Source: a virus
Length of the DNA: 49,212 nt
IMG/VR virus record: IMGVR_UViG_3300025282_000054
Span: 1 to 49,212 of that record
Direction: 5' to 3' (one strand)
Below the pieces are notes generated by a model. That model was not told the origin of the DNA and did no database searches. It saw only the letters and a list, made by a program, of their open reading frames with translations. Each line of letters opens with the position of its first letter. Position 1 is the first letter of the stretch. Below, piece after piece: positions 5,283 to 40,033 of this stretch. The position numbers were made by a program, and so were the translations under genes.

Positions 5283-5771
5283 ATGATCGATCATATTAGC
5301 TCCAGACAGATCACTTGGAACATCAATGTCACGGCAATCAGGACAAACGGTTCACCAGTTACTCAGCAGTTCATGTTGCGGTTTGGCGATGAGGCTGTGG
5401 TCGAGGCGACGATTGACGCAATTACATCGACGCTCACCCACTGGACGAACGACACCCACTTGGGTGGCGTTGTTCGATTCTTCGTGAACCTGACCGACCG
5501 TCGTTTCAACAACAGCGAAACGTTGGAGTTCAGCGACGTGGCTGGTGTGCGTTTGTATTTGAAAGAGTACGACGACAGCAAGGTGGTGATTGAATCAACG
5601 GGTGTGATGGCAGTGTGGACCGTCGTCGAAGCCCCGAAGCCTCCGGTCAGACTGACCTCGGACATCAAGTCACCGCACGGATTCAAGGTCACGGAACCCC
5701 TCATTGTCCTGTGTGACGTATGCGGTTACGACATTGAAGGGGACGACCCAGCCTTTGCATGTAACTGTTGA
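5283..5771 (+). CDS. hypothetical protein with C-terminal cysteine cluster (162 aa)
   Basis: ATG 5283 with AAAGGA 9 nt upstream. The body is predicted mainly beta with alternating polar and hydrophobic residues (ITWNINVTAIRTNGSPVTQQFML). The last 20 residues contain CDVCGYDIEGDDPAFACNC: four cysteines in CxxC and CxC pairs that could hold one zinc ion. No family is recognised. The neighbours are small early genes of unknown role, separated by hairpins on both sides. Confidence 0.65.
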   Translation: MIDHISSRQITWNINVTAIRTNGSPVTQQFMLRFGDEAVVEATIDAITSTLTHWTNDTHLGGVVRFFVNLTDRRFNNSETLEFSDVAGVRLYLKEYDDSKVVIESTGVMAVWTVVEAPKPPVRLTSDIKSPHGFKVTEPLIVLCDVCGYDIEGDDPAFACNC

Positions 5772-6903: not shown

Positions 6904-8478
6904 ATGGAATCCAAAAACAACGCAATCACCAAGCAGTTCCTCTCGGCTCGCGCAGTAAGCACACCGATCGTGGCAATCGAAACGCCTGACCCGGGCGCAA
7001 CGAGGAAGCGTCTCATCACTGGCGTGGAGGGTGTATGTCAGAAGCGGCAGGTCGCAGTGGCCTCGATGTTTGTATGGGACGCCGCATCGGGTATGCGTCC
7101 AGTGAACGATGAGGCGCAAGCAGTCTTCGGCAACATGCTAGAGCCGTTCGGTGGTGAGCAGATGGCAACAATACAACCACAGAATGCGTTGATGGTTGCA
7201 GCGTCCTCGCCAGATTCGTCGATGACCATTATGTCGAACCTGCATCGCTTCTGGGAAGATGCTCGATTGGACCCTGCCGTGTTGCAGGGCATCTGGAATC
7301 TGCGCGACCAGTTCAAGGTGAGTGGTCGTACGTTGGTTCTCACGATGCCGGATTGCACGTTGCCACCCGAGCTTCGGAATGATGTTGTGGTGTTGTCTGA
7401 GGCGATGCCTACGCCTGACGAGCTACGGCCGGTCGTTGTGAAGATCCACGAGAATGCTGGACTGCCTAAGCCGTCAGCCAGTGTTCTGGAAAACGCGACT
7501 GATGCGTTGGCTGGCTTGGCAATGCAACAGGCAGAGCAGGTCACCGCGATATCGCTTCGGAAGTCTGGTCTGGACCTTGAGTCTCTTCGGCAGCATCAAC
7601 GGCAGCAGATTGAACAGACCCCGGGTCTGTCGATCTTTAGTTCCGATGCAGCCTTCGACAAACTCAAAGGACTCGGTGCGTTGACCAAGTTCCTGCGCGG
7701 CATCATCAAGGGCAAGCGTCCTCCGAAGGCGATTGTCTTCATCGATGAAATAGAAAAGATGTTGGCCGGAGCGTTTGGAAGTCAGGGTGATTCGTCTGGC
7801 ACATCCCAAGAGCAACTTGGTTACTTCCTGCAGCACATGCAGGACGAGAACGCACGGGGCGTCTTGGTGCTTGGCCCTCCGGGAACTGGTAAGAGCGAAC
7901 TGGCGAAAGCGACTGGCAACGAGGGTGACTGCTGGACAGTTGGTCTTGACGTTGGTGGCATGAAGGGGTCGTTGGTTGGGGAGTCTGGTGCGATGACCCG
8001 TCGAGCCTTGAATGTAATCAAGGCGCTTGGTCAGGGTGATTGCTTCTGGATCGCAACCTGCAATTCCATCGAGAGTCTGCCGCCTGAACTGCGGCGTCGG
8101 TTCTCGTATGGCACATGGTATGTCGAGCTTCCGAATGCCGATGCTCGAAAAGCCATGTGGAAACTCTACGGAGAGAAGTATGACGTGGACCCGGGTAGCG
8201 TTGCGGACGAGGGCTGGACTGGCGCAGAGATTAAAACATGCGTGACGATGGCAGCGGACATGGACACTACGGTCGAGGAGACTGCAAGGTTCATCACGCC
8301 GGTGTCTCGTTCCAGCGCCGAGTCGCTAGCGCGTCTCCGGTCGTTGGCGTCTGGTCGTTTCTTGGATGCGTCGAGCGGAGACTTCTACCAACAGTCGTCG
8401 AAGCCAGTCTCCACACCAGAGGGGATGAAACAGATTCCCAAGGATGCTGGTCGCATCTTCGACATGGACGAATCGTAG
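6904..8478 (+). CDS. Ycf46-like AAA+ ATPase with Walker B placed before Walker A
   Basis: A protein of 524 aa with TGGAGA upstream of ATG 6904. The N-terminal 270 residues are Ycf46-like (no enzyme motif). Then come VFIDEIEK (Walker B-like, Asp281-Glu282), then GPPGTGKS (Walker A, Lys330), then LDVGGMKGSLVGES, then IATCNSIESLPPELRRRF (sensor 1 and Arg finger). In ordinary Ycf46-type AAA+ proteins the order is Walker A, SLVGES, DEIEK, sensor 1. All pieces are in one uninterrupted frame, so the permuted order is real in this sequence. It precedes DUF1257- and DUF2997-like genes, partners also clustered with such ATPases elsewhere. Its cellular role is unknown; a remodelling or protease-like function is plausible. 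Confidence 0.8.
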   Translation: MESKNNAITKQFLSARAVSTPIVAIETPDPGATRKRLITGVEGVCQKRQVAVASMFVWDAASGMRPVNDEAQAVFGNMLEPFGGEQMATIQPQNALMVAASSPDSSMTIMSNLHRFWEDARLDPAVLQGIWNLRDQFKVSGRTLVLTMPDCTLPPELRNDVVVLSEAMPTPDELRPVVVKIHENAGLPKPSASVLENATDALAGLAMQQAEQVTAISLRKSGLDLESLRQHQRQQIEQTPGLSIFSSDAAFDKLKGLGALTKFLRGIIKGKRPPKAIVFIDEIEKMLAGAFGSQGDSSGTSQEQLGYFLQHMQDENARGVLVLGPPGTGKSELAKATGNEGDCWTVGLDVGGMKGSLVGESGAMTRRALNVIKALGQGDCFWIATCNSIESLPPELRRRFSYGTWYVELPNADARKAMWKLYGEKYDVDPGSVADEGWTGAEIKTCVTMAADMDTTVEETARFITPVSRSSAESLARLRSLASGRFLDASSGDFYQQSSKPVSTPEGMKQIPKDAGRIFDMDES

Positions 8479-8733: not shown

Positions 8734-8735
8734 CG
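8725..8735 (+). repeat. dispersed motif GAGGGGTGACG, copy 3
   Basis: Exact 11-mer spanning the stop codon of the 8518 gene and ending 27 bp before ATG 8763. Unlike the other copies it is preceded by C, not G. Confidence 0.6.
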
Positions 8736-8762
8736 GTCATTCGTATTCCTTAGGAGATAAAC

Positions 8763-9215
8763 ATGTCTCATGTGGCAAATGTTGAGGTTGAGATTCAGGA
8801 CATCGGTTCGCTGAAGGCGGCTTGCACCAAGCTCGGCTTGACGTTCAAGGAAGGACAACAAACGCATCGGTGGTATGGAAAGTTCATGAACGACTGGGAC
8901 ACTGATGATTCGGCTGTGGCAAACGGGTATGACCCGAAGACGTTTGGGACATGCGAACACGCCATCGAAGTGCCGGGGTCGGATTACGACATCGGCGTGG
9001 TGAAGAACCCAAAGGGCAGTGGCTACCGTCTCATCTATGACACGTGGGGTCATCAAGGCGATGCGATTGCAAACAAGCTCGGCGGGATGAAGCTCACCAA
9101 ACTCAAGACTGAGTATGGCGCCTCCAGAGCCACGAAGTATTTACAGCGTAGCGGTTACCGTGTTGTCCGTCGCGTGTTAGCGAACGGGCAGGTCAAGATT
9201 TCTGGAGTGAAATAG
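8763..9215 (+). CDS. DUF1257 (Ycf35-like) protein
   Basis: A protein of 150 aa with TTAGGAGA before ATG 8763. It begins MSHVANVEVEIQDIGSLKAAC and contains YDIGVVKNPKGSGYRLIYDTWG and LKTEYGASRATKYLQRSGYRVV followed by a xxGQVKI end. These are the conserved blocks of the Ycf35/DUF1257 family known from cyanobacteria, plastids and some phages. The function of that family is not established. Its adjacency here to a Ycf46-like ATPase and a DUF2997-like protein repeats a known gene neighbourhood, which supports the assignment and implies that the three act together. Confidence 0.75.
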   Translation: MSHVANVEVEIQDIGSLKAACTKLGLTFKEGQQTHRWYGKFMNDWDTDDSAVANGYDPKTFGTCEHAIEVPGSDYDIGVVKNPKGSGYRLIYDTWGHQGDAIANKLGGMKLTKLKTEYGASRATKYLQRSGYRVVRRVLANGQVKISGVK

Positions 9216-9223
9216 GAGACATC

Positions 9224-9412
9224 ATGAGCCAAATCATTGAGGTCATTATCGACACGGACGGCAACATCGAAGTCCAAACGCAGGGCTTCTCCGGACCAGA
9301 CTGCAAGAAGGCAACAGCGGATCTGGAACGTTCACTTGGAAAGGTTACTGGCGACAAGGTGACCAGCGAGTACTACAGAGCCAGTCCCGTTACTGTGAAA
9401 GCGAGAGGCTAG
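9224..9412 (+). CDS. DUF2997-like small protein
   Basis: A protein of 62 aa with GGAGACATC before ATG 9224. The pattern (IIEVIIDTDGNIEVQTQGFSG, a Cys, then LERSLGKVTGD and SEYY) matches the DUF2997 family: a small alpha/beta protein with a conserved Gly-x-x-Gly-x-x-Cys and terminal EYY. DUF2997 genes commonly neighbour DUF1257 and Ycf46-type ATPase genes. Biochemical function unknown. Confidence 0.72.
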   Translation: MSQIIEVIIDTDGNIEVQTQGFSGPDCKKATADLERSLGKVTGDKVTSEYYRASPVTVKARG

Positions 9413-18352: not shown

Positions 18353-18645
18353 CGATTATATTGGCCTTGTTTGCTCTTGGCATGATTGTCGGTTGGTTGA
18401 TCGCCACACGGGAATCCACCGACAGCATCGAGCGATTCCGCTACAGTGACCAGAAGTTCTACGAACGGTGGAAGGCTTACTGTGAATTGGAAAAACGATT
18501 AGGGGAGAGACACGATGAACATTCTGGTCACAGGAGCAACGGGAGCACTGGGTCGGGCCGTTCTTCGTTATGCGTTGAGACAAAAGGAAACAACGAGAGT
18601 GGCAGCGTTCGCTCGGTCCGAGTCGAGACTGACGGAACTGACTAG
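18328..18645 (+). CDS. small membrane protein with long 3' overlap (105 aa)
   Basis: ATG 18328 has GAGG 8 nt upstream; GTG 18349, inside motif copy 5, is another possible start. A membrane helix (VTIILALFALGMIVGWLIA, residues 8-26) is followed by a charged helix. The last 43 residues are Ser/Gly/Arg-rich and overlap the start of the dehydratase gene by 131 bp in another frame, so the natural end of this protein may have been lost by mutation or sequencing error. Function unknown. Confidence 0.45.
   Translation: MESNFGGVTIILALFALGMIVGWLIATRESTDSIERFRYSDQKFYERWKAYCELEKRLGERHDEHSGHRSNGSTGSGRSSLCVETKGNNESGSVRSVRVETDGTD
18344..18354 (+). repeat. dispersed motif GAGGGGTGACG, copy 5
   Basis: Exact 11-mer, preceded by G, spanning the stop of the HNH gene and lying early in the small membrane protein frame, before the sugar cluster. 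Confidence 0.6.
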
Positions 18646-19540
18646 CGAACTTGGACACTACAGCACCTTCCGTCCTTTTCTTGGCGACATACGAGACGAA
18701 GGTCGGCTCCGCGATGCCTGTGTCGGAGTGGACACAGTGATACATGGGGCAGCCCTCAAGAGAGTAGACGACGGCGCTTACAATCCGCTTGAGATGCACA
18801 AGACGAACGTAATGGGCAGCATCAACGTGGCGAACGCTGCGAGGGCTGAGGGAGTTCGGAATGTCGTGCTGGTCTCTTCCGACAAGGCGGTGTCTGCCAT
18901 CAACACGTATGGCGGCAGTAAGTATCAGGCCGAGAATTGTCTGAGGGAATTGAACGCGCATTCTGCACCACGAGGCACACGGATTTCTTGTGTCCGGTAT
19001 GGCAACGTGCTTGGCAGTACGGGGAGTGTGCTTACGCTCTGGCATAAACAACACCGGCAAGGTGGAAGACTGGTTCTGACTGACAAGCGGATGACCCGTT
19101 TCTGGATGACGCTCGATGAAGCGGTGCGCCATGTGTTTAAGGCGCTGCGAATAATGCGCGGCGGCGAGATTATTATTCCGATGATGCAAAGTTCAACGCT
19201 CTGGTTGTTAGCTCAGGCCTATCAGGACGTAACTGAATGGGTAGATTGCGAGATACAGGAGATGGGCGTTCGTACTGGTGGCGAGAAACGACATGAGTCC
19301 TTAATCAATGAGGACGAGGCCACTAGAGCGATTGCCCAAAAGGGTGTCGTGGTAATTCCACCGGCTGTGCATTCGTGGACCGCTGATGAATGGAAGACCG
19401 ATGGGACGGTGACTGTTCCACATCCATACCATAGCAATGCGGTGAAATGCTGTACGCATACGCGGAAAAGTCTGCGCGGAGTTCTTGAGTCGATAGAGGG
19501 AGTGTGGAAAAGTCCCGAGGTCCGTTGCCAAGTCAGGTGA
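18515..19540 (+). CDS. pseB-like: UDP-GlcNAc 4,6-dehydratase-like SDR (PseB/FlaA1-type)
   Basis: A protein of 341 aa with GGGGAGA upstream. It is an extended SDR: NAD-binding TGATGALG (residues 6-13), GDIRDEGRL, HGAALKRV, then the catalytic SSDKA with Asp123-Lys124, Tyr132 and Lys136 (DK-x7-Y-x3-K, as in FlaA1/PseB), RYGNVLGSTGSV and TDKRMTRFWMTL. PseB-family enzymes convert UDP-GlcNAc to a 4-keto-6-deoxy sugar nucleotide, the first step to pseudaminic and related acids. It opens the phage sugar cluster. The family is clear; the exact epimer made is not determinable from sequence. Confidence 0.85.
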   Translation: MNILVTGATGALGRAVLRYALRQKETTRVAAFARSESRLTELTSELGHYSTFRPFLGDIRDEGRLRDACVGVDTVIHGAALKRVDDGAYNPLEMHKTNVMGSINVANAARAEGVRNVVLVSSDKAVSAINTYGGSKYQAENCLRELNAHSAPRGTRISCVRYGNVLGSTGSVLTLWHKQHRQGGRLVLTDKRMTRFWMTLDEAVRHVFKALRIMRGGEIIIPMMQSSTLWLLAQAYQDVTEWVDCEIQEMGVRTGGEKRHESLINEDEATRAIAQKGVVVIPPAVHSWTADEWKTDGTVTVPHPYHSNAVKCCTHTRKSLRGVLESIEGVWKSPEVRCQVR

Positions 19541-19734
19541 GCCTACCGTTCACGTTGACTCTGGTAGGGCGACTCACCCAATCGAGTCGTGGCGTGTGGC
19601 ATGTGGTCGATAACGTAATGACCGGAGTGCGGTTTGGTTACTTCAAGGCCAAGTGCGGACTTGATACTCACTATACGTTCGACGGTCAAGCTGGAACGCT
19701 GTGTCGTAGGTGCAAAAAGTCTGGCACTGGGTAG
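19537..19734 (+). CDS. small cysteine-containing protein (65 aa)
   Basis: GTG 19537 overlaps the previous TGA; no strong ribosome binding site, so coupled translation is assumed. Features: WHVVDN, KCGLDTHYTF, and LCRRCKKSG near the end, which could form a small zinc knuckle. Its stop abuts the ATG of the oxidoreductase gene. No family is recognised; its place inside the sugar operon does not by itself give a role. Confidence 0.5.
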   Translation: MSLPFTLTLVGRLTQSSRGVWHVVDNVMTGVRFGYFKAKCGLDTHYTFDGQAGTLCRRCKKSGTG

Positions 19735-20628
19735 ATGGATAAGCAGGCCTTAGTCATTGGACTTGGTTCGATGGGTCAACGCCACCTGCAGTACATGGGA
19801 GAGCGTGCTGGTGTCTCACGGTTTGGCTGTGACAGGAGACCGGAGACGTTTCCAGACGGAGTGCCGTGTGTGCAGGACATTACACAGGCGCTTCACTGTT
19901 TCTCGCCGTCGCTTGTCGTTATTGCGTTGCCAGCGAGATATCACTTGGAAACGCTGTATCAGGTTCGACAGGCACATCCGGACGCGAGCATCTTGGTTGA
20001 GAAGCCACTATCCGATCGTCCGTTGTCAGACGAGGACAAGGAACGATGTCTCAACATCGGGGGCATTGTGTGTGTCGGGTATAACTGGAGATTTCATCCG
20101 TTTGCCAAGATGCTGCACGGAGTTCGGGATGCGATTGGGGATATCACTTTCCACGTAGGTAGTGACATGCGGACATGGCCCGGGAGTGATTACTCAGATC
20201 CGTTGCGGGAGTTTTCCCACGAGTTGGACTTGGTTGCATATCTTACGTCCATGCCTCAGGTCACGGACGCAACCATGACTCCGCACGGTCGTTATGTTGT
20301 GGATGGATTTCATAGTCATGGTCGCTGGCGTGTTGTCATTGCTCCGTATCATGAGCCAGTCGAGCGATGGGTGAATGTGGAGATACGACCACCGGTAGGC
20401 AACGGGCGAGTAATGACATACCCGTGGGATATGCAGTCACACACGCTGGAGGCAATGTATAGGGCGCAGTCGTTTCGGTTCCAGAGAATGTCTACGGTTG
20501 GTATCGCTTCGGCCATGGACTCATCGCGCCTGCTGTGTTCCGTGTCGGATGCGTTGATGACCACGGGGCTTATAGATAATGCCGAAGTGTTGCTGGCTCG
20601 AAAGGACAAGGGATGTCTCATTATGTAG
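19735..20628 (+). CDS. Gfo/Idh/MocA-family oxidoreductase
   Basis: A protein of 297 aa starting directly after the preceding TAG. The Rossmann motif GLGSMGQRH (residues 9-17), VVIALP, VEKPLSD with Glu89-Lys90-Pro91, GYNWRFHP and EFSHELDL with His162 and Asp165 are the conserved elements of NAD(P)-dependent sugar dehydrogenases of the Gfo/Idh/MocA family. Members oxidise or reduce hydroxyls of (nucleotide) sugars. In nonulosonate-type clusters such an enzyme can supply a keto-sugar for an aminotransferase, which is present at 23609. Substrate inferred, not proven. Confidence 0.82.
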   Translation: MDKQALVIGLGSMGQRHLQYMGERAGVSRFGCDRRPETFPDGVPCVQDITQALHCFSPSLVVIALPARYHLETLYQVRQAHPDASILVEKPLSDRPLSDEDKERCLNIGGIVCVGYNWRFHPFAKMLHGVRDAIGDITFHVGSDMRTWPGSDYSDPLREFSHELDLVAYLTSMPQVTDATMTPHGRYVVDGFHSHGRWRVVIAPYHEPVERWVNVEIRPPVGNGRVMTYPWDMQSHTLEAMYRAQSFRFQRMSTVGIASAMDSSRLLCSVSDALMTTGLIDNAEVLLARKDKGCLIM

Positions 20629-21473
20629 AGCGTCTTGGCTTACGTGAGCGTCGGACCTATGTCATTGCCGAGGCTGGGTCATGTGGTGATGCGACTCCGA
20701 ACAAGATGGCGGAACAGATCGACCGATGTGCCGATGCTGGATGCGATGCTGTGAAATTCCAGTGGACCTCAAGCGCAAAGGAGATGGCGCGCAGGCGTGG
20801 TCGTGCTACGGCAGATGGGTATGACCTCATTTATCAGCGTTACCTTGAGTGGCCAGACGACTGGCACGCCATTCTTCAGGCTAAGTGTCAGGAGCGAGGA
20901 GTGGATTACCTGTGTTCGGTCTATCTTGCCAGCGATGTGTACGTGGTCAGCCCGTATGTCAGTCACTTTAAGGTGTCGAGCTTTGAGGCACTGGACTGGA
21001 CGTTGCAGTCTCGGGCGATATCGGAATGCCTGCATTCGCTTCGGAAGTGTATGTTCGTTTCGGTAGGGATGTGCAGCGACGATGAGGTGGAAACATTGCG
21101 CCGTCAGTATGCGGCATCGCCGTTTGTTGCTTTGTTGCATTGCGTGACGGCTTACCCTACGCCCTTTGGCTCAATGAATCTGTCGTCTATTTATCGCAAT
21201 GGCCTTGATGGGTTTTCCGATCACACTGATCCCGCGATAACCATGACTGGTGCGCTAGCAGTAGCGGCCGGTGCGAGGATTATCGAGGCGCACATGCGTC
21301 TGGAGAATACAGACCCTTTGAATCCAGACGCTGCTCATGCTATGACACCGGACCAGCTTTCGGACTACGTTTCTCGTATTCGGATGGTGGCACAGGCGAT
21401 GAGTAGGCCGGAAGATGATGATGTCCAAGACAACATGCGGTGCTATCGAGTGGGAGATACCTTTGGAGACTAA
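20613..21473 (+). CDS. neuB-like: NeuB/PseI-like nonulosonic acid synthase lacking the SAF domain
   Basis: A protein of 286 aa; ATG 20613 overlaps the previous gene. NeuB motifs: IAEAGSCGD near 18-26, DAVKFQ (45-50), FKVSSFEALD, SVGMCSDDEV, LLHCVTAYPTP (175-184), FSDHTDP and IIEAH. The two manganese-ligand histidines (His204 and His227 here) are kept, while the Lys of the usual IIEKH is Ala226. Known members condense phosphoenolpyruvate with a hexosamine to a nine-carbon acid. The protein ends right after the barrel, so the C-terminal antifreeze-like (SAF) domain of about 60 residues is missing. Chemistry is plausible; exact product unknown. Confidence 0.8.
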   Translation: MSHYVERLGLRERRTYVIAEAGSCGDATPNKMAEQIDRCADAGCDAVKFQWTSSAKEMARRRGRATADGYDLIYQRYLEWPDDWHAILQAKCQERGVDYLCSVYLASDVYVVSPYVSHFKVSSFEALDWTLQSRAISECLHSLRKCMFVSVGMCSDDEVETLRRQYAASPFVALLHCVTAYPTPFGSMNLSSIYRNGLDGFSDHTDPAITMTGALAVAAGARIIEAHMRLENTDPLNPDAAHAMTPDQLSDYVSRIRMVAQAMSRPEDDDVQDNMRCYRVGDTFGD

Positions 21474-21909
21474 TCTGAGGCGGGCAACGATGGAGGACGC
21501 GGAAGCTGTTTACAACTGGCGCAACGATCCGAAGGTGCGAGCGGTCTCCAGAAGCGTCGGCGAGATTGATTATGCCGCTCATGCGTCATGGTTCGCAGAA
21601 CGTATTCCACTGACGCATCCAGAGACTGTGTGGATAATCGAAGCAGACGATGGAGTCGGGATAGGAAGCGCCCGTATCAATTGCTATGAGGACGATGATC
21701 GGGCAGAAATAAGTGTGGTGCTTGGTGAAGAGCATAGGAGTCGAGGTGTGGGTCGACAGGTGATTAAGCAGTTGGCTGACAAGGTTCGGGCAATGGGTCG
21801 GGTGCCAACTGCGTTCGTTCGACCTGATAACAGGCGTTCCCTTAATACGTTTACGGCAGCAGGGTTCACCTATGTGCTTCCGGTGATTGAGTTACATGTC
21901 AGGGATTAG
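21421..21909 (+). CDS. GNAT acetyltransferase, PseH-like
   Basis: About 162 aa from ATG 21421, which overlaps the NeuB-like gene; in-frame ATGs at 21415 and 21418 precede it. The domain begins NLRRATMEDAEAVYNWRNDPKVR, and contains the acetyl-CoA site EEHRSRGVGRQVIKQL and the terminal PDNRRSLNTFTAAGF. The N-terminal LRxxxxxDxxxVxxWRN pattern is that of PseH and similar N-acetyltransferases acting on amino-sugar nucleotides. In this cluster it would acylate an amino group made by the aminotransferase. Confidence 0.75.
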   Translation: MSKTTCGAIEWEIPLETNLRRATMEDAEAVYNWRNDPKVRAVSRSVGEIDYAAHASWFAERIPLTHPETVWIIEADDGVGIGSARINCYEDDDRAEISVVLGEEHRSRGVGRQVIKQLADKVRAMGRVPTAFVRPDNRRSLNTFTAAGFTYVLPVIELHVRD

Positions 21910-22936
21910 CGTTAAGGAGAAAGAGTCGGTAAACGTGTACGGCAGGGAGATGTTTCGGAACAGCGAGACATGGGATGGGTTTGTTGATCGTCATCATGCT
22001 GGTTACTGGTGGCATCGACAGGCGTGGTTGGACTATTCGCTATCGTATGACCCGAAGGCAGTGGACCGATCGTTCGCTGTAGTCGTAAAGTCCAATGGAT
22101 ATCCGAGGGTGATGGCTGTCTGTCCTGCGATAGAACGGGACGCGATCATTTGCATGGGCGCAGGTGATGTGCCGTGTGCTGGTCCGTTAGTTATCGATCA
22201 CCAAGACGAGACGTACACGTCGTGGTATCGGGAAGTATTGTTAAGGAACATTCAATCACGTCTCGGTGGATGTCGCGGTTGGTGGTCGTGGAATCGAGAG
22301 CCAAGTGATTCGCGTGAACTGATTCAGGTGTTGGCAAAGCGTCTGTCCATGGGGCAGTCGGTGACAAGCACATCATTGGTATCGGTGCGGAACGAACGGG
22401 CGTGGTTTGGTTTACGTAAGAGCTATAGGTCGTTGGTGTTGTCTGCGGCTCGGGAGTACGACATCGGATACGGGTTTGCTGACCTCTGGCCGTATTACGA
22501 AATGTGCCATCGACACTGTGCCACCAGAGAGCGTGACGGTGATACCTATCTTCATCAGTTGCGATGGTTGCGTCAGGCGTCGGCGTTCGTGGTTGTAGCG
22601 TTGCCAAAGCATGGAGGGACAACGGGGGCAATGAACCCAGATGGTCGGGTGACCTCTTCATTGTCTTGGGTTGCGTCAGGTTCGGGTCCTGATCCCTCGT
22701 CTACATTGGCTGCTGCCTATGTTCTCGTGTATAAGGGGCGCGCCTACTATGCAAGTGGGCCGAGTGTGCAGAGTAACCTGCAACATGCTCTACAGTGGGC
22801 GGCGATACAGGCGGTAGCTCGACTCGGTGGACACACTTACGAGCTTGGACATCATACCGATGACGGTATCGGCTTTTTTAAGCGAGGGTTCAGTAAGGAT
22901 GTTGGCAGCGTTGATGTCTTGAATGGGTATATATGA
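21896..22936 (+). CDS. FemAB/double-GNAT-like acyltransferase
   Basis: A protein of 346 aa from ATG 21896 (overlaps the GNAT gene; weak ribosome binding site). The N-terminal half shows WWHRQAWLDYSL and CAGPLVID; the C-terminal half has the GNAT-like tail YYASGPSV, HALQWAAIQAVARLGGHTYELG and IGFFKRGFSKD, the pattern of FemAB-type transferases (family feature: substrate sugar or amino acid acylation, often using aminoacyl-tRNA or acyl-CoA). In this context it may acylate the nonulosonic sugar or its glycan. The identification rests on the C-terminal pattern. Confidence 0.6.
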   Translation: MSGISVKEKESVNVYGREMFRNSETWDGFVDRHHAGYWWHRQAWLDYSLSYDPKAVDRSFAVVVKSNGYPRVMAVCPAIERDAIICMGAGDVPCAGPLVIDHQDETYTSWYREVLLRNIQSRLGGCRGWWSWNREPSDSRELIQVLAKRLSMGQSVTSTSLVSVRNERAWFGLRKSYRSLVLSAAREYDIGYGFADLWPYYEMCHRHCATRERDGDTYLHQLRWLRQASAFVVVALPKHGGTTGAMNPDGRVTSSLSWVASGSGPDPSSTLAAAYVLVYKGRAYYASGPSVQSNLQHALQWAAIQAVARLGGHTYELGHHTDDGIGFFKRGFSKDVGSVDVLNGYI

Positions 22937-23616
22937 CCAGACAAGTGGTGGCAATCATACAGGCGCGCCTTGGAAGCTCTCGATTTCCTCGGAAGTCACT
23001 GGCTATGTTCAAGCATCGGCCGATGATCGAGCATGTGATCCAGCGTGTCCAGCAAGTGCCATTGATTGACGAGGTTGTGGTGACGATTCCAACGCTGGAT
23101 AAAGCGTTGATTGATGTCGTTCGGGACTATGGTTCTCGACTGGTGAACACGGATGTCGGGAATCGCCCAGTGCGTATCGCGTGTGGTCCAGAGCAGGACG
23201 TTCTTCTGCGGTACTGGTTGGCGGCGTGCGAGTATCAAGCCGATGTAGTGGTTCGCGTGACAGGCGATTGCCCGCTGTGGTCATCTAAGGCTGGAAATAC
23301 AGTGGTGAAAGCCTTCCTTGAGGATAAGAAGCGTCGAGCGTTTTGGTCGAACGATACGACCTTGAGTGGGTGGCCAGACGGAACTGATGTTGAGGTGTTC
23401 TCGATGGATCTGCTCCGTCAGGCACGGAACGCTCGGAGTACGCTAACGAATGACGATCGGGAACACGTTACGACGTGGATGAGGAGGCAACTGCATGGGA
23501 AGTGTGGTGTGGTCTATCGCAAGGAGGACAACATCTCGTCCCTCAAGTTATCGGTCGACACGATTATGGATCTCTTGAGGATTGAGACATTCGATGAGGC
23601 GTTATTGCATGGATGA
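22933..23616 (+). CDS. spsF-like: SpsF/CMP-nonulosonate-type cytidylyltransferase
   Basis: A protein of 227 aa, 4-bp overlap with the previous gene (ATGA). Signature IIQARLGSSRFPRKSL near residues 8-22 (CTP-binding loop), HVIQRVQQ, CGPEQDVLLRY, VVRVTGDCPLW, DGTDVEVFS and REHVTTWM. This is the SpsF/NeuA-like family that activates acidic or other sugars with CTP. It would convert the acid made by the NeuB-like synthase to a CMP-sugar donor. The following aminotransferase starts inside this gene's end. Confidence 0.82.
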   Translation: MTRQVVAIIQARLGSSRFPRKSLAMFKHRPMIEHVIQRVQQVPLIDEVVVTIPTLDKALIDVVRDYGSRLVNTDVGNRPVRIACGPEQDVLLRYWLAACEYQADVVVRVTGDCPLWSSKAGNTVVKAFLEDKKRRAFWSNDTTLSGWPDGTDVEVFSMDLLRQARNARSTLTNDDREHVTTWMRRQLHGKCGVVYRKEDNISSLKLSVDTIMDLLRIETFDEALLHG

Positions 23617-24736
23617 AAGCAAATTATTGGAACGTGCGCGTCTGGTAACGCCCGGTGGCGCACAAACTTCCAGCCGGAGACATGGGAATGTTGGTCCCCG
23701 TTCTTATCCACCGTTTGCAACACGAGGAGAAGGAGCGTATTTATACTTCAACGACGGCACAAGAGCGATTGATTTGGCTGGGTCGAATGGCGCGGCGGCG
23801 CTTGGCTATGCTCATCCAGAGGTCGTGGCGTCCGTAGAGCGATACATAGGCAGTGGGTGTACCTTGTCGTTGCCGACTGGCCTTGAAGTTGAGGCATCGG
23901 AGGCGATGATCCGAGGCTTTGACTATGATGTCGCGGTGCGGTGGGTTCGTACAGGAAGTGAGGCTGTATCTGCTGCGGTCAGCGTGGCGCTTGAGGCGAC
24001 AGGTCGTGAGGCTGTTGCCGCGTTGGAAGGCTCCTATCACGGCTGGCATCCGTGGACCAGAAAGGTTTCTCGTTACGAGAGTGTGGATAAAGTGCCATTG
24101 GAGAATGTGGCAGCGTTGCTGATTGAGTCTCCTCGATGGCGTGAGGTTGATAACGATTACATTGTCTCCCTTCAACGGATACGGAACCTGTGCAATCGGC
24201 ATGGTGCCTTGTTGATATTCGATGACGTAGTGTACGGATTTCGTTTTGCCGTAGGTGGATTAACCGAAACAACTGGCGTCCGGTCCGACCTGTCCTGTTT
24301 TTCTAAGGCGCTTGGCAATGGAGTGCCGGTTGGGTGTGTGGTTGGTTCAAGGGACCTAATGATGCGCACTGGTTATCGAGTTAGTAGCACGTTCGGTGGG
24401 GAGACAGTTGGCTTGGCGGCAGCCAGAGCGGTGCTGGCATTACATGCGGAGTTCGATGTATGCGGAGAGCTACGCGAGATGGGAAGACGATTACGATCTG
24501 ACCTCGACGATGGCTTGCGGTCGTCTCCGATACGGGTGGAGGGAACACCGCAGCATTTCCGCTTCGTCTCTGACCACCCAAATACTTTGGAGCGTTTTTT
24601 GACTTTATGTATGCAGCAGTCAGGAGATGCTCGGGTGCTGATACATCGAGACGCCAACAATATTAACCTGATGATGAATGAGTCCATACGGCAACGCATA
24701 GTTGATACGGTCTGTGCCGCTGCCAGTCATATCTAG
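23609..24736 (+). CDS. class III PLP aminotransferase (GSA-aminotransferase-like)
   Basis: A protein of 375 aa starting at ATG 23609, inside the end of the cytidylyltransferase gene. It is a fold-type I PLP enzyme: TPGGAQTSSR start, GSEA (116-119), YHGWH (143-147), IFDDVVYGFR (Asp205) and the Schiff-base lysine in SKALGNGVPVG (Lys233). Closest family features are those of glutamate-1-semialdehyde aminomutase-like enzymes, several of which act in polysaccharide clusters next to NeuB and SpsF. It would place an amino group on a keto-sugar. It takes the place of the DegT-type aminotransferase PseC, which I do not see in the window. Confidence 0.8.
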   Translation: MDESKLLERARLVTPGGAQTSSRRHGNVGPRSYPPFATRGEGAYLYFNDGTRAIDLAGSNGAAALGYAHPEVVASVERYIGSGCTLSLPTGLEVEASEAMIRGFDYDVAVRWVRTGSEAVSAAVSVALEATGREAVAALEGSYHGWHPWTRKVSRYESVDKVPLENVAALLIESPRWREVDNDYIVSLQRIRNLCNRHGALLIFDDVVYGFRFAVGGLTETTGVRSDLSCFSKALGNGVPVGCVVGSRDLMMRTGYRVSSTFGGETVGLAAARAVLALHAEFDVCGELREMGRRLRSDLDDGLRSSPIRVEGTPQHFRFVSDHPNTLERFLTLCMQQSGDARVLIHRDANNINLMMNESIRQRIVDTVCAAASHI

Positions 24737-24744
24737 GAGGAGAC

Positions 24745-25293
24745 ATGGCAGAGCAAAAGAAGCAGTGGCGCAATCGAATCATCGGTCAAGGCGAGGAGGT
24801 GCCAGATCAATTGCTGGCAAATCCTAAGAACTGGAGAATCCATCCCAAGGAACAGCAGGAGGCGTTGGGTGGAGTGATGGAGCGTGTGGGTTGGGTGCAG
24901 CAGGTCGTGGTAAATAAACGGACAGGCTTCGTGGTTGATGGACACTTACGTGTCAGCATGGCGATTAGCAGGAGCGAGCCTATGGTCCCTGTGGTGTATG
25001 TGGATCTGTCTGAGGAAGAGGAGGCGTTAATTCTTGCGACTATCGACCCGTTGGCGGCGCTGGCAAAAACAGACAACGACCAATTACGTGATTTGGTGAC
25101 AGACATTGGGGTCAATGAGCAGATACGTGACCTCTTGGCCGCTCTTCGCTTGCCCGTTGATGTTGCAGACGTGCCTCCTGACGAGTTTGATATGGTTGAT
25201 CCCAATGCTCATTCAAAATTTCGGTGCCCAAAGTGCGCCTATGAGTGGGACGGCTCACCGACACCTCAAAAGGATGACCAATCAGCGCAATAA
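24745..25293 (+). CDS. ParB-like nuclease-domain protein with C-terminal CxxC
   Basis: A protein of 182 aa; TAGGAGGAGAC precedes ATG 24745. Residues 20-70 hold the ParB-N/Srx-like core: NPKNWRIHPKEQQEAL, GWVQQVVVN and VVDGHLRV (residues 64-70). The C-terminus has FRCPKCAYEWDG, a single CxxC half zinc ribbon. Phage ParB-like proteins of this type commonly neighbour DNA methyltransferase genes. It is directly followed by the phased repeat array at 25301, a natural candidate for its binding region. Role inferred: DNA binding or processing coupled to modification. Confidence 0.75.
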   Translation: MAEQKKQWRNRIIGQGEEVPDQLLANPKNWRIHPKEQQEALGGVMERVGWVQQVVVNKRTGFVVDGHLRVSMAISRSEPMVPVVYVDLSEEEEALILATIDPLAALAKTDNDQLRDLVTDIGVNEQIRDLLAALRLPVDVADVPPDEFDMVDPNAHSKFRCPKCAYEWDGSPTPQKDDQSAQ

Positions 25294-25300
25294 ACGAGAT

Positions 25301-25468
25301 ATTCGGCACGTTCGGTGCGTTGTCGGCGTTACGGCGCGCACCGAATGCACCAAATGAGCACCGAATCAGCACTGAATGCACCGAATCAGCACCGAATCAA
25401 CCGAACTCGCACCGAACGTGCGCCGAACATACCAAACGTGCGCCGAACACACCGCATACGCGCCAAAC
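25301..25468 (+). repeat. array of about 13 GCACCGAAT-like repeats at 9/11-bp spacing
   Basis: Nine-base units related to GCACCGAAT start at 25338, 25347, 25358, 25369, 25378, 25389, 25398, 25409, 25420, 25429, 25440, 25449 and 25460. Steps are 9 or 11 bp (mean 10.2), about one helical turn. Two inverted units (25301-25309 and 25310-25318) precede the array. It lies in a 213-bp gap between the ParB-like and PP-loop genes. An origin iteron array, a ParB-type centromere or a multi-site operator would all fit; the region has no credible gene. Confidence 0.7.
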
Positions 25469-25506
25469 CACTGTATTTATAGCCTTAAACGGACCGTATA
25501 AGCCGA

Positions 25507-26313
25507 ATGAATGTTAGAGAGACCCTTGCTTCTTTAATCGAGCCACTACCTACGCCTCTGCCCATTGCAACATCTGGGGGAATAGACTCTTCGTCGCTGA
25601 CATTAGCGGCTAGGGATGCAGGAAAGGACCCGATTATTGTCTCGTTTACGTTGGCCGATCGGGAGTCGGCTGACTTTGTGGCAGGCCGTAAGCTCGCTAA
25701 TCACTTTGGATTTGAGTTTCGGCCAGTGATTCTTCCTGTGGATACAGATGTTATCTGTGGAGACGTGATTCGGCTCATTCGGCGCTACGGTGCTCGCCGT
25801 AAAACAGCCATCGAGTGTCTCTGGCCGTATTTGCACGTCTTGGAAACCCTCAAGTCCTTAAATCATTCAGTCCTCCTTACTGGTAATTCCGCTGACGGAC
25901 ACTTCGCTCTGTCACGCAAGGCGATGGTTCGTTATAGGGTGCGAGAGTCTAAGGAGCAATTCCAGCTGTTCAGACAGCACTTCTACGCCAATCCCGAGTC
26001 ATCCCAGATTGGCTTTTTGCATCGTATCTATTCACAGGAGAACATTCAGGTCCATACCCCGTGGTTTGATCCAGCGCTGTTTGCCCTGTTTGAGGATTGC
26101 ACGTGGGAAGAAGTGAATAAGCCGAGACAAAAGGAAGTTGTCCGCGTGGAATTTCCAGAGTTGGATACATTGCACATTGCTGGCTACTCGCCATTGCAGC
26201 TTGGCGATTCTGGGATCGCTTCAACGGTAGGCGATGCTGTCAGGAGGCGATATGCCCCAGAAGCCAAGTCTCCCATTCGCGCCTACAACCTAATCGCTCA
26301 GGCCTCATCATGA
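25507..26313 (+). CDS. asparagine-synthetase-type PP-loop amidotransferase domain, no glutaminase
   Basis: A protein of 268 aa from ATG 25507. PP-loop SGGIDSS (residues 23-29), ANHFGFEF, LLTGNSADGHF (126-132, counterpart of the GEGSDEVF loop of AsnB) and VHTPWFDPALFALF (counterpart of the ARVPFLDxxFLDVA motif) identify the AsnB synthetase domain. In AsnB that domain adenylates a carboxylate and hands it ammonia. The usual N-terminal glutaminase domain is absent, so ammonia or another amine must come from elsewhere. It overlaps the DNA methyltransferase gene by 4 bp, so amidation of a carboxylated base is a reasonable hypothesis; direct proof is lacking. Confidence 0.78.
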   Translation: MNVRETLASLIEPLPTPLPIATSGGIDSSSLTLAARDAGKDPIIVSFTLADRESADFVAGRKLANHFGFEFRPVILPVDTDVICGDVIRLIRRYGARRKTAIECLWPYLHVLETLKSLNHSVLLTGNSADGHFALSRKAMVRYRVRESKEQFQLFRQHFYANPESSQIGFLHRIYSQENIQVHTPWFDPALFALFEDCTWEEVNKPRQKEVVRVEFPELDTLHIAGYSPLQLGDSGIASTVGDAVRRRYAPEAKSPIRAYNLIAQASS

Positions 26314-27425
26314 AACCTGCCTATGTAGTGCCGACGCTTGCTGAAGTGGAATCGCTTTCATGGAATGGCCTGAATGTTGTGTCGACCTTTAGCGGTGGTG
26401 GTGGATCGTGTCTTGGGTTTCGCATGGCAGGCTATCGCACATTGTGGGCCAGTGAGTTTATTCCGCTGGCAGCAGAAACCTATCAACTGAATCATCCGAA
26501 CGTGTTCTTGGACACTAGAGACATCAGGCAGGTGCATCCTGATGACATTCTCAAGCGAGTGCCGTCTGGTGAATCGGTGCATGTGCTGGAAGGCTCGCCG
26601 CCTTGCGCTGCATTCTCGTTGGCTGGCAAGCGAACAAAGGGATGGGGTCAGGTAAAGAAGTATTCCCAGACCGAACAGCGCGTTGATGACCTGTTTGAGG
26701 AGTTCCTTCGACTGGTCGCTGGCGTCCAGCCGTATGTTTTTATTATGGAGAACGTGAAAGGTCTTATCGGCGGTGCGTCGAGTGGCGTGCTGCAGGACAC
26801 ACTGGAGACGATGCGAGCGATTGGCTATCGCGTGCAGGCTCGGGTGCTAGATGCTCAGTGGTTGGGTGTCCCGCAGTCTAGGGAGCGTGTCATCTTTCAG
26901 GGTGTACGCCGTGACCTTAATCGTCAGCCGGTATGGCCTAAGCCGCTCAACTATCAGTATTCGATTAGGGAGGCTGTGCCTAGTCATGTGCTACGACATG
27001 CACATGGAGCTCCGTTCCCGAATCATGTCTTTGGCAAGACGTATGCTGGTGAAACCTTTGTAAGCAGTGTCGCTAATGATGTGCCTGAGCTTACAAAGAA
27101 CGATCAGGCTCGGGTGCACTACGTGTTTGGTCATGGACATGCTAACTTCCTTCAACGTGGACAGCCCCTCTCGCTGAATAAACCAGCTCCGACTATCATG
27201 GCAACGGCCGATAGCGTCGAGAAGCACCTTAAAACCAACTGGGCAACCTATCGCCGTCGTCTAAGCATGGATGAATTGCGTCTCCTCTGTTCGTTCCCGT
27301 CAGACTTTCGATTGGCGGGCGAGAGTTACATCAGGCAATGGGAGCGTTTTGGTCGAGCGGTGCCACCATTGATGATGCGAGCGGTGGCAGAAACGATACG
27401 GGATAAGATTTTTGGCCCTGTATAG
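26310..27425 (+). CDS. cytosine-5 DNA methyltransferase with Asn-to-Arg in motif X; probable DNA carboxymethyltransferase
   Basis: A protein of 371 aa; ATG 26310 overlaps the PP-loop gene stop. C5-MTase motifs: I FSGGGGSCLGF (27-37), IV GSPPC with catalytic Cys99, VI MENVKG (Glu147), VIII QSRERV (189-194), and motif X near the C-terminus. Motif X is normally GN[AS]V; here it is G348-R349-A350-V351 (codon CGA at 27354). That Asn lies by the cofactor methyl. In M.MpeI the engineered N374K change (recalled from literature) enables use of carboxy-SAM. With a CmoA-like gene next door, DNA 5-carboxymethylation is my leading inference; plain methylation remains possible. Confidence 0.9.
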   Translation: MKPAYVVPTLAEVESLSWNGLNVVSTFSGGGGSCLGFRMAGYRTLWASEFIPLAAETYQLNHPNVFLDTRDIRQVHPDDILKRVPSGESVHVLEGSPPCAAFSLAGKRTKGWGQVKKYSQTEQRVDDLFEEFLRLVAGVQPYVFIMENVKGLIGGASSGVLQDTLETMRAIGYRVQARVLDAQWLGVPQSRERVIFQGVRRDLNRQPVWPKPLNYQYSIREAVPSHVLRHAHGAPFPNHVFGKTYAGETFVSSVANDVPELTKNDQARVHYVFGHGHANFLQRGQPLSLNKPAPTIMATADSVEKHLKTNWATYRRRLSMDELRLLCSFPSDFRLAGESYIRQWERFGRAVPPLMMRAVAETIRDKIFGPV

Positions 27426-27440
27426 TCCGAGACGGGAAAT

Positions 27441-28178
27441 ATGATGAGGGATACAGTAGAGCCTGACGGTGCGTGGGTGTTCGACACTACGGTGGCAGCG
27501 TCCTTCGACGACATGTTGGAGCGTTCGATTCCACAATATTCAGTAATGCGAGACGCTGTAACGGGAATCGGCTGTCGATTCATGGATAAGGTGCAGGGAC
27601 ACGGCACGATTATCGACCTTGGATGCTCTCGGGGAGCGGCCCTTGCCCCGTTTGTTGACCGTTACGGTCAGTCGGCTCGGGTGCATGGGATAGAAGTCAG
27701 CCAACCTATGCTCGACGAGGCGCGCACCCTGTTTGCTGAACCCATCAAGTCGGGCATCGTTACGTTGGAAGGGATTGACCTACGAACAGACTGGCCCACG
27801 ATTGACACAACCGTCCACCCTAATTACCTCACACTGTGTATCCTGACGTTGCAATTCATCCCGATGGAACATCGGCAGCGACTCTTGGCTAGCGTCTTCC
27901 AGACGATGGAGTCTGGTGGCGCGTTCATCTTGGTAGAGAAGGTGCTCGGCGCAACCAGTTCGCTCGATACGGTCTTCAAAGGCGAGTATTACCAACTCAA
28001 GCGTGAGCATGGCTACTCACAGGAATCTATCGACCGGAAGCGACTGAGCCTTGAAGGTGTGCTGGTGCCTGTCACGGCAGAATGGAATGAGGGCCTGCTC
28101 AGGCAGACAGGCTTTCAACAGGTCGATTGCTTCTGGCGCTGGATGAACTTCGCCGGATGGGTTGGAGTTAAGCCTTAA
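27441..28178 (+). CDS. cmoA-like: carboxy-SAM synthase, CmoA-like
   Basis: A protein of 245 aa, 15 bp after the methyltransferase gene. It aligns by eye along its length with E. coli Cmo[21 protein letters not shown] matches [30 protein letters not shown] matches the SAM motif [25 protein letters not shown], and [17 protein letters not shown] match TLQFL, GGALVLSEK, and GYSELEISQKRSMLENV. The Arg equivalent to CmoA Arg199 (which contacts the carboxylate of cxSAM) is Arg201 here. CmoA makes cxSAM from SAM and prephenate for tRNA wobble modification with CmoB. No CmoB is visible, so cxSAM is likely used by the adjacent DNA methyltransferase. Confidence 0.9.
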   Translation: [245 protein letters not shown]

Positions 28179-39757: not shown

Positions 39758-40033
39758 ATGGCTAACACACTAACCATTCGGGTGTCCTCTGGGTCAATCG
39801 ACCGACTCGATGCTCTCTGTAAATCCAGCGGGCTGACTCGCGGCGATGCCCTGTCGTGGATTCTTGAAGAAACAGGTCGACCGTCTATTCCAAAGCGAGG
39901 CAAGGCCAGTCGTTCTGAGCCAGTGTCGTTGACGATTTCCGATGCCGCGCACTCGACCCTTAATGCGGTGGTCGCAGCGAATGAGGCAAGCGTAAGCGTG
40001 GTTGTGGAGGCGTATCTCGCCAGAGACTACTGA
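39758..40033 (+). CDS. ribbon-helix-helix-like protein in the head-tail block
   Basis: A protein of 91 aa. Two similar halves: LTIRVSSGSIDRLDALCKSSGLTRGDALSWILE and VSLTISDAAHSTLNAVVAANEASVSVVVEAYLA, each a strand plus two helices as in Arc/MetJ RHH domains; the protein thus looks like a tandem RHH. Unusual in a connector operon; may be a regulator or a small structural part. The stop overlaps the next start. Confidence 0.55.
   Translation: MANTLTIRVSSGSIDRLDALCKSSGLTRGDALSWILEETGRPSIPKRGKASRSEPVSLTISDAAHSTLNAVVAANEASVSVVVEAYLARDY

Follow-up and report, generated by a model that had tools for sequence, protein, structure and literature searches.

A helically phased array of short repeats within a predicted 5-carboxymethylcytosine module in one viral lineage

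Integrase arm sites are a protein-binding architecture in which short direct repeats are set at helical spacing. In parC centromeres, the repeats bound by ParR are described as 11 bp in R1, 10 bp in pB171, and 20 bp in pSK41 (PMC9426499, PMC5016525). The 5-carboxymethylcytosine (5cxmC) pathway of CmoA, CmoX, and CmoY was described in PMC12783734, according to which ParBc-domain proteins occur in many 5cxmC contigs and SpCmoX requires a GC dinucleotide. That report (2025) called the precise function of the ParBc proteins unknown, and its main text does not contain the word "iteron."

The array reported here lies in the window (a virus record of 49,212 bp), beside genes that make up a predicted 5cxmC module of ParBc, a CmoY-like ligase, CmoX, and CmoA (Table 1). 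The order is ParBc and then CmoY-CmoX-CmoA. As in the CmoA-CmoX-CmoY-ParBc module described in PMC12783734, the genes are neighbors, and the CmoX-like protein carries both SPPC and an R350-equivalent Arg, with a CmoA homologue and an amide ligase alongside. The Arg was placed by count after ERFGRAVPP of the CmoX-like protein was aligned to ERVGRMVPP of 8yf3; from its residue numbering, we infer that the 8yf3 chain is SpCmoX. The PP-loop protein matches a gene of S-B43 that carries the annotation putative asparagine synthase. The locus differs from the module described in PMC12783734 in the array itself, which the comparison modules examined do not have. The array holds 14 GC dinucleotides, against 9.6 expected; since SpCmoX needs GC, this excess does not make the array a special substrate, and the proposal, made in an earlier sequence-only reading, that it is a protected site for the modification enzymes was not upheld.

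Table 1. Coordinates of the array and of neighboring features in the window
Feature	Position	Strand	Remarks
ParB-like (ParBc) gene, 182 aa	24745..25293	+	ParB_N-type domain (residues about 21-124), CPKC C-terminus
Intergenic gap holding the array, 213 bp	25294..25506	+	Considered among the gaps of genes 18515-28178
Inverted units at 25301 and 25310 (good) and at 25321 and 25329 (weak)	25301..25337	-	Matches of 8/9, 9/9, 6/9, and 7/9, respectively
65-aa open frame spanning the array	25320..25517	+	Codon score lower than that of in-frame genes; not regarded as a gene
13 direct 9-bp units, GCACCGAAT to GCGCCAAAC	25338..25468	+	Steps of 9/11 bp, super-period of 51 bp; starts at 25338, 25347, 25358, 25369, 25378, 25389, 25398 (first seven) and 25409, 25420, 25429, 25440, 25449, 25460 (last six)
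PP-loop/asparagine-synthase-like gene, CmoY-like amide ligase	25507..26313	+	
Cytosine C5 enzyme gene, CmoX-like	26310..27425	+	SPPC present, Arg at SpCmoX R350 position
CmoA-like gene (YecO, carboxy-SAM synthase family)	27441..28178	+	

The thirteen GCACCGAAT-like direct units that had been proposed were recovered, with every step either 9 or 11 bp and none of 10 bp (in order, 9, 11, 11, 9, 11, 9, 11, 11, 9, 11, 9, 11); the pattern 9, 11, 11, 9, 11 forms the super-period. Compared to GCACCGAAY, the direct units have between 0 and 3 mismatches. The two inverted units placed at the left end were likewise found, and two weak ones were added, bringing the repeats to about 17. In inverted orientation, the stretch from 25301 to 25318 aligns to the unit pair spanning 25409-25428; the alignment has a 2-nt gap and a score of 29, which 0 of 2,000 shuffles reached. 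The array as an observation is therefore confirmed. In the gene run from 18515 to 28178, no gap but the one holding the array exceeds 15 bp; units are rare elsewhere in the window, and CACCGAAT occurs 0 times outside the array. Both features favor the reading that we tentatively prefer, namely, that the array is a multi-site, operator-like binding array for a putative protein. The genes of the run at 18515-24736 (polysaccharide epimerase, NeuB-like, cytidylyltransferase, and class III aminotransferase) are conserved in terminase relatives, and we take them to be a sialic/legionaminic-type sugar pathway in the phage.

Next, the periodicity of the array was examined. A motif-free scan ranked 25338 first in the window (z of 9.9), with no second peak of 5.2 or more. 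Self-identity of the array was 0.66 at lag 20, 0.66 at lag 31, and 0.64 at lag 51, compared to best values elsewhere in the 49-kb window of 0.39, 0.44, and 0.48, respectively. The expected 10.2-bp autocorrelation was recovered in part: the mean unit step is 10.17 bp and phase coherence (R) is 0.943 at 10.18 bp, but identity at lag 10 itself was at background (0.226), and lag 9 was unremarkable (0.392 versus 0.464 elsewhere), because the units alternate between steps of 9 and 11 bp. The observed coherence was reached by 0.2% of random orders of the array's own steps, by 1% of independent draws of 9 and 11, and by 16% of draws of 9, 10, and 11. The regularity of order and phase and the retention of the step in units with up to 3 mismatches are points for an operator-like array.

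Block duplication, however, keeps phase by itself. TRF resolved a 31-mer in 2 copies at 90% and a 20-mer in 2.2 copies at 87%. Read as blocks, the steps run 31, 20, 31, 20, and 20 bp, and R was at least 0.918 for each of the 10 ways of ordering two 31-bp and three 20-bp blocks. The array is largely explained by such duplication. Since every block order keeps phase, the fact that phase is retained does not count as separate evidence of selection; the regular phase results from how the array was copied, so that drift of the units with held phase, from which selection on spacing had been argued, is weak evidence for it. The TRF blocks and the block-order result instead favor a short, functionless satellite produced by replication slippage, block duplication, and one inverted duplication, with phase as a by-product of the 20- and 31-bp blocks. 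We consider this neutral origin nearly as likely as the operator-like array. Against it, 213 bp has been kept in an otherwise gapless gene run, and the steps are only 9 or 11 bp despite many substitutions, although few indels would be expected anyway. Alignments sought between the array and the neighboring genes, as sources of its seed, were no better than those with random pieces of the window.

The distribution of the array in relatives bears on both readings. It is unchanged in three further records (3300008220_000240, 3300028022_000137, and 3300009605_003067), which is a point for a binding array; however, these records differ from the window by only 3 to 4 mismatches (and one gap) over 14 to 20 kb, so their agreement has no power. 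No intermediate relatives of this lineage turned up in the collections searched, and the phage collection gave no DNA match to the 3.5 kb around the array. Among 20 terminase loci, none of the 17 outside the lineage has more than 3 unit matches per 150 bp. The span from the aminotransferase gene to TerS is complete in only 5 of these 17 (L018, L022, L023, L027, and L029, with L022 and L023 appearing to be one virus), and in all five the place of the array is taken by a swapped modification module. By Pfam, PTPS and radical-SAM genes occur in the modules of both L018 and L029, joined by QueC in L018 (where the PTPS is QueD-type) and by GTP cyclohydrolase I in L029; a ParB-like gene was found in each of L018, L022, L027, and L029. 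One site adjoining the terminase appears to be a place where DNA-modification modules replace one another, each with a ParB-like protein. The predicted 5cxmC module itself spans 24745-28178, and 7-deazaguanine-type genes stand at the corresponding place in terminase relatives, with the QueC/PTPS/radical-SAM/GTP cyclohydrolase genes at 4784-8601 in L018 and at 5831-8681 in L029. A packaging site was also considered and rejected, given that 3 kb separates the array from TerS and that nothing is present in this position in relatives.

CmoA loci gave the same result. A repeat scan restricted to lags that are not multiples of 3, with the window's lineage (L261 to L263, of 80 loci) left out, found a 9- to 11-bp-phased array in 0 of 77; the repeats present were unrelated ones of 7, 8, and 23 bp, in six loci. 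L333 has the gene order of the window, ParBc-CmoY-CmoX-CmoA, with the CmoY frame overlapping the end of ParBc. The gap from the ParB-like gene to the next gene was at most 3 bp in 19 of 20 genes and 104 bp in L003, compared to 213 bp in the window; the 20 comprised 17 of 18 ParBc relatives (L334 left out) and terminase relatives L018, L022, and L029, and the next gene was taken to begin at the first start codon met from a point 60 bp short of the stop, a rule that leans toward overlap. Absence from related phages had been named in advance as a finding that would refute the sequence-only reading, and absence was what we found in all other relatives examined; the array is thus an insertion private to one lineage and does not belong to the module. 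The lack of the array in related modules and relatives counts against an operator, and its restriction to one lineage fits neutral duplication, as do the unrelated 8-bp tandem arrays at other CmoA loci (L279/L281/L283 and L285/L288) and a different 17-mer that is scattered in 8 copies over a non-coding stretch of terminase relative L029.

The adjacent ParB-like protein had been put forward as the natural binder. Its gene (24745-25293) gave no HTH match up to an E value of 10, and its product did not match PF02195, so that its ParB-likeness rests on PHROGs. The CPKC...YEW-type C-terminus recurs, with variations, in 18 relatives (compared by eye) chosen from 27 loci that have a ParBc match and lie outside the window's lineage, and the relatives' modules lack the array and mostly lack intergenic space. 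Matching no DNA-recognition domain, the ParB-like protein is a poor candidate binder. Among all proteins scanned, no Pfam HTH or ribbon-helix-helix (RHH) match exceeded the cutoff, which weighs against an operator-like array, and the best RHH match was a subthreshold one at 39770-39850. This negative result also fits the neutral explanation.

These searches also bear on whether the array is a replication origin or partition site (iterons or a parC-like centromere). Phased direct repeats of 10 to 11 bp upstream of a gene are a likeness to parC (PMC9426499, PMC5016525), and GC skew falls at about 25 kb, as checked for the origin role in the sequence-only reading. However, the change in skew is small and partly due to the C-rich array itself, and terminase relatives do not have the array. 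No ParM, ParA, TubZ, or initiator gene was identified among the genes around the array, and a ParB with an HTH recognizing the site, as in parS/ParB systems, was not found at 24745-25293. Unlike parC-type centromeres or iterons, the array has no gene for a cognate binding or motor protein next to it (no ParM/ParR genes were identified, with RHH only subthreshold at 39770); the neighboring protein is of the ParB_N type and belongs to a DNA-modification module. An origin or partition role is thus very unlikely.

Similar repeats were then sought elsewhere. Among the matches listed for the pattern GCACCGAAN{1,3}GCACCGAA, most were 9-bp-step (coding-type) repeats. A step-11 pattern gave 41 stretches, 3 of them from the known lineage, with the best other match being a chain of 6 at a constant 11 bp in L349. 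In bacterial genomes there were 22 stretches, led by a chain of 7 in L382 (Thiohalocapsa). When the motif was relaxed to an 11-9-11 pattern, 107 stretches were found, and several of them are approximately 10-bp-phased C-rich arrays in unrelated contexts; a match to any of four query integrases was seen at 6 of 104 such loci tested, always within 1 kb of the pattern. In L147, ATTCGCACCGA repeats at 11-bp steps lie on both sides of a tmRNA-3'-end-like core (named by eye), with an integrase adjoining, and in L381, three ATTCGCACCGA repeats separate tmRNA from an Arm-DNA-bind_2 integrase that is 51% identical to that of L147. L147, L381, and L355 all have ATTCGCACCGAATT at 11-bp steps. These repeats, beside tmRNA or tmRNA-end-like sequence at 2660-2890 (L147), 1165-1200 (L381), and 5640-5675 (L355), look like arm-type attachment sites common to distant ssrA-associated integrases.

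The likeness raises the possibility that the array is what remains of integrase arm-type (attP) sites, or a decoy of them. In both cases short, non-coding direct repeats are helically spaced, and they share the core GCACCGAA and an 11-bp step. The match is partly by construction, however, because the arm-like loci were found with the window's own motif, and only 3 of 60 GCACCGAA-pair loci examined match one of the four query integrases within 1 kb. The window differs in its number of units (about 17 versus 2 to 3 per arm), in its mixed 9/11 steps, and in a spacer that is not TC. It has neither an integrase gene nor a tRNA/tmRNA-like core between arms: PF00589 and PF00239 (tyrosine and serine recombinases) had 0 matches in the 49,212-bp record, which may be incomplete, and no tRNA or tmRNA was found, in a search that would miss a partial core, as it did in L147. 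Seven of eight related records searched (including L002, of the same lineage) had no integrase, the exception being the record of L333. We regard an attP origin as very improbable. For the operator-like array, L147 and L381 do provide examples of short phased direct repeats where protein binding is expected.

To complete the analysis, the array was considered as coding sequence and as RNA. As a repeat protein coupled to CmoY, it would be translated in the 65-aa frame, which is open, has a 51-bp period equal to 17 codons, and overlaps the start of the CmoY-like gene by 11 nt at its end. The frame scored -0.045 per codon, versus 0.045 to 0.256 (5 to 95%) for in-frame gene pieces; off-frame pieces reached -0.077 at their upper 95% bound. 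The TTG start of the frame has no ribosome site in front, and the frame has no PHROG match. Translation of the array is not supported, which counts for an operator-like array, and a coding explanation is extremely improbable. The earlier description, of an array that is phased, non-coding, and placed between the genes for the ParB-like and PP-loop proteins, is supported. As RNA, inverted units could pair with direct units in the CmoY leader and control translation. In the predicted fold, which has a minimum free energy (MFE) of -54.9 kcal/mol, units around 25409-25428 are paired with the left inverted end; no Shine-Dalgarno-like sequence precedes the CmoY-like gene. The MFE z score is only -1.59, however (12 of 200 shuffles fold as well), the array region matches no Rfam family, and helical phase would be irrelevant to such a role, making this account highly improbable.

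The operator-like array thus stays our tentative preference. It would serve as a multi-site landing pad, with copies of a putative phage or host DNA-binding protein bound at each unit core (CCRAA) and lined up along roughly the same helical face. Given its place directly upstream, the array would most likely control CmoY-CmoX-CmoA expression. Steps of 9 and 11 bp would give no constant protein-protein geometry, and no sigma-70-like promoter was found between the array and the CmoY-like gene, two points against this reading; no promoter or terminator scored above chance. A narrower version, in which the array is a dedicated 5cxmC-pathway switch, a phased multi-site element timing the amide-ligase and carboxymethyl steps and loaded perhaps by ParBc or by a regulator sensitive to modification of the GC-starting units, seems quite unlikely.

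To our knowledge, from a limited literature search, no cis-acting control element for 5cxmC modification is known. If protein-binding, the array would offer a first handle on regulation of a 5cxmC module and would help in asking what the ParBc proteins of such modules do. If neutral, it would be a clear case of helical phase arising from block duplication and a caution against reading phased repeats as selected.

Several other repeats and genes were observed. Approximately 10-bp-phased, C-rich CCNAA arrays occur in unrelated viral contigs (L169, L203, L187, L191, L213, L252, and L215); some adjoin integrases, some are intergenic, and one (L215) is inside a gene. The 8-bp tandem arrays of CmoA-bearing contigs are TTAGGTGA-like or CTAGTCAG-like (L285 at 1065, L288 at 1039, and L283 at 4103). 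The L029 17-mers are TTTAACGTTCAGAGCAG-like and lie at 8735-9201, in a largely non-coding stretch upstream of TerS, with irregular spacing (33, 33, 136, 25, 16, 153, and 54). In the window, DUF1257 and DUF2997 genes (8763-9409) adjoin an AAA ATPase gene (6904-8478).
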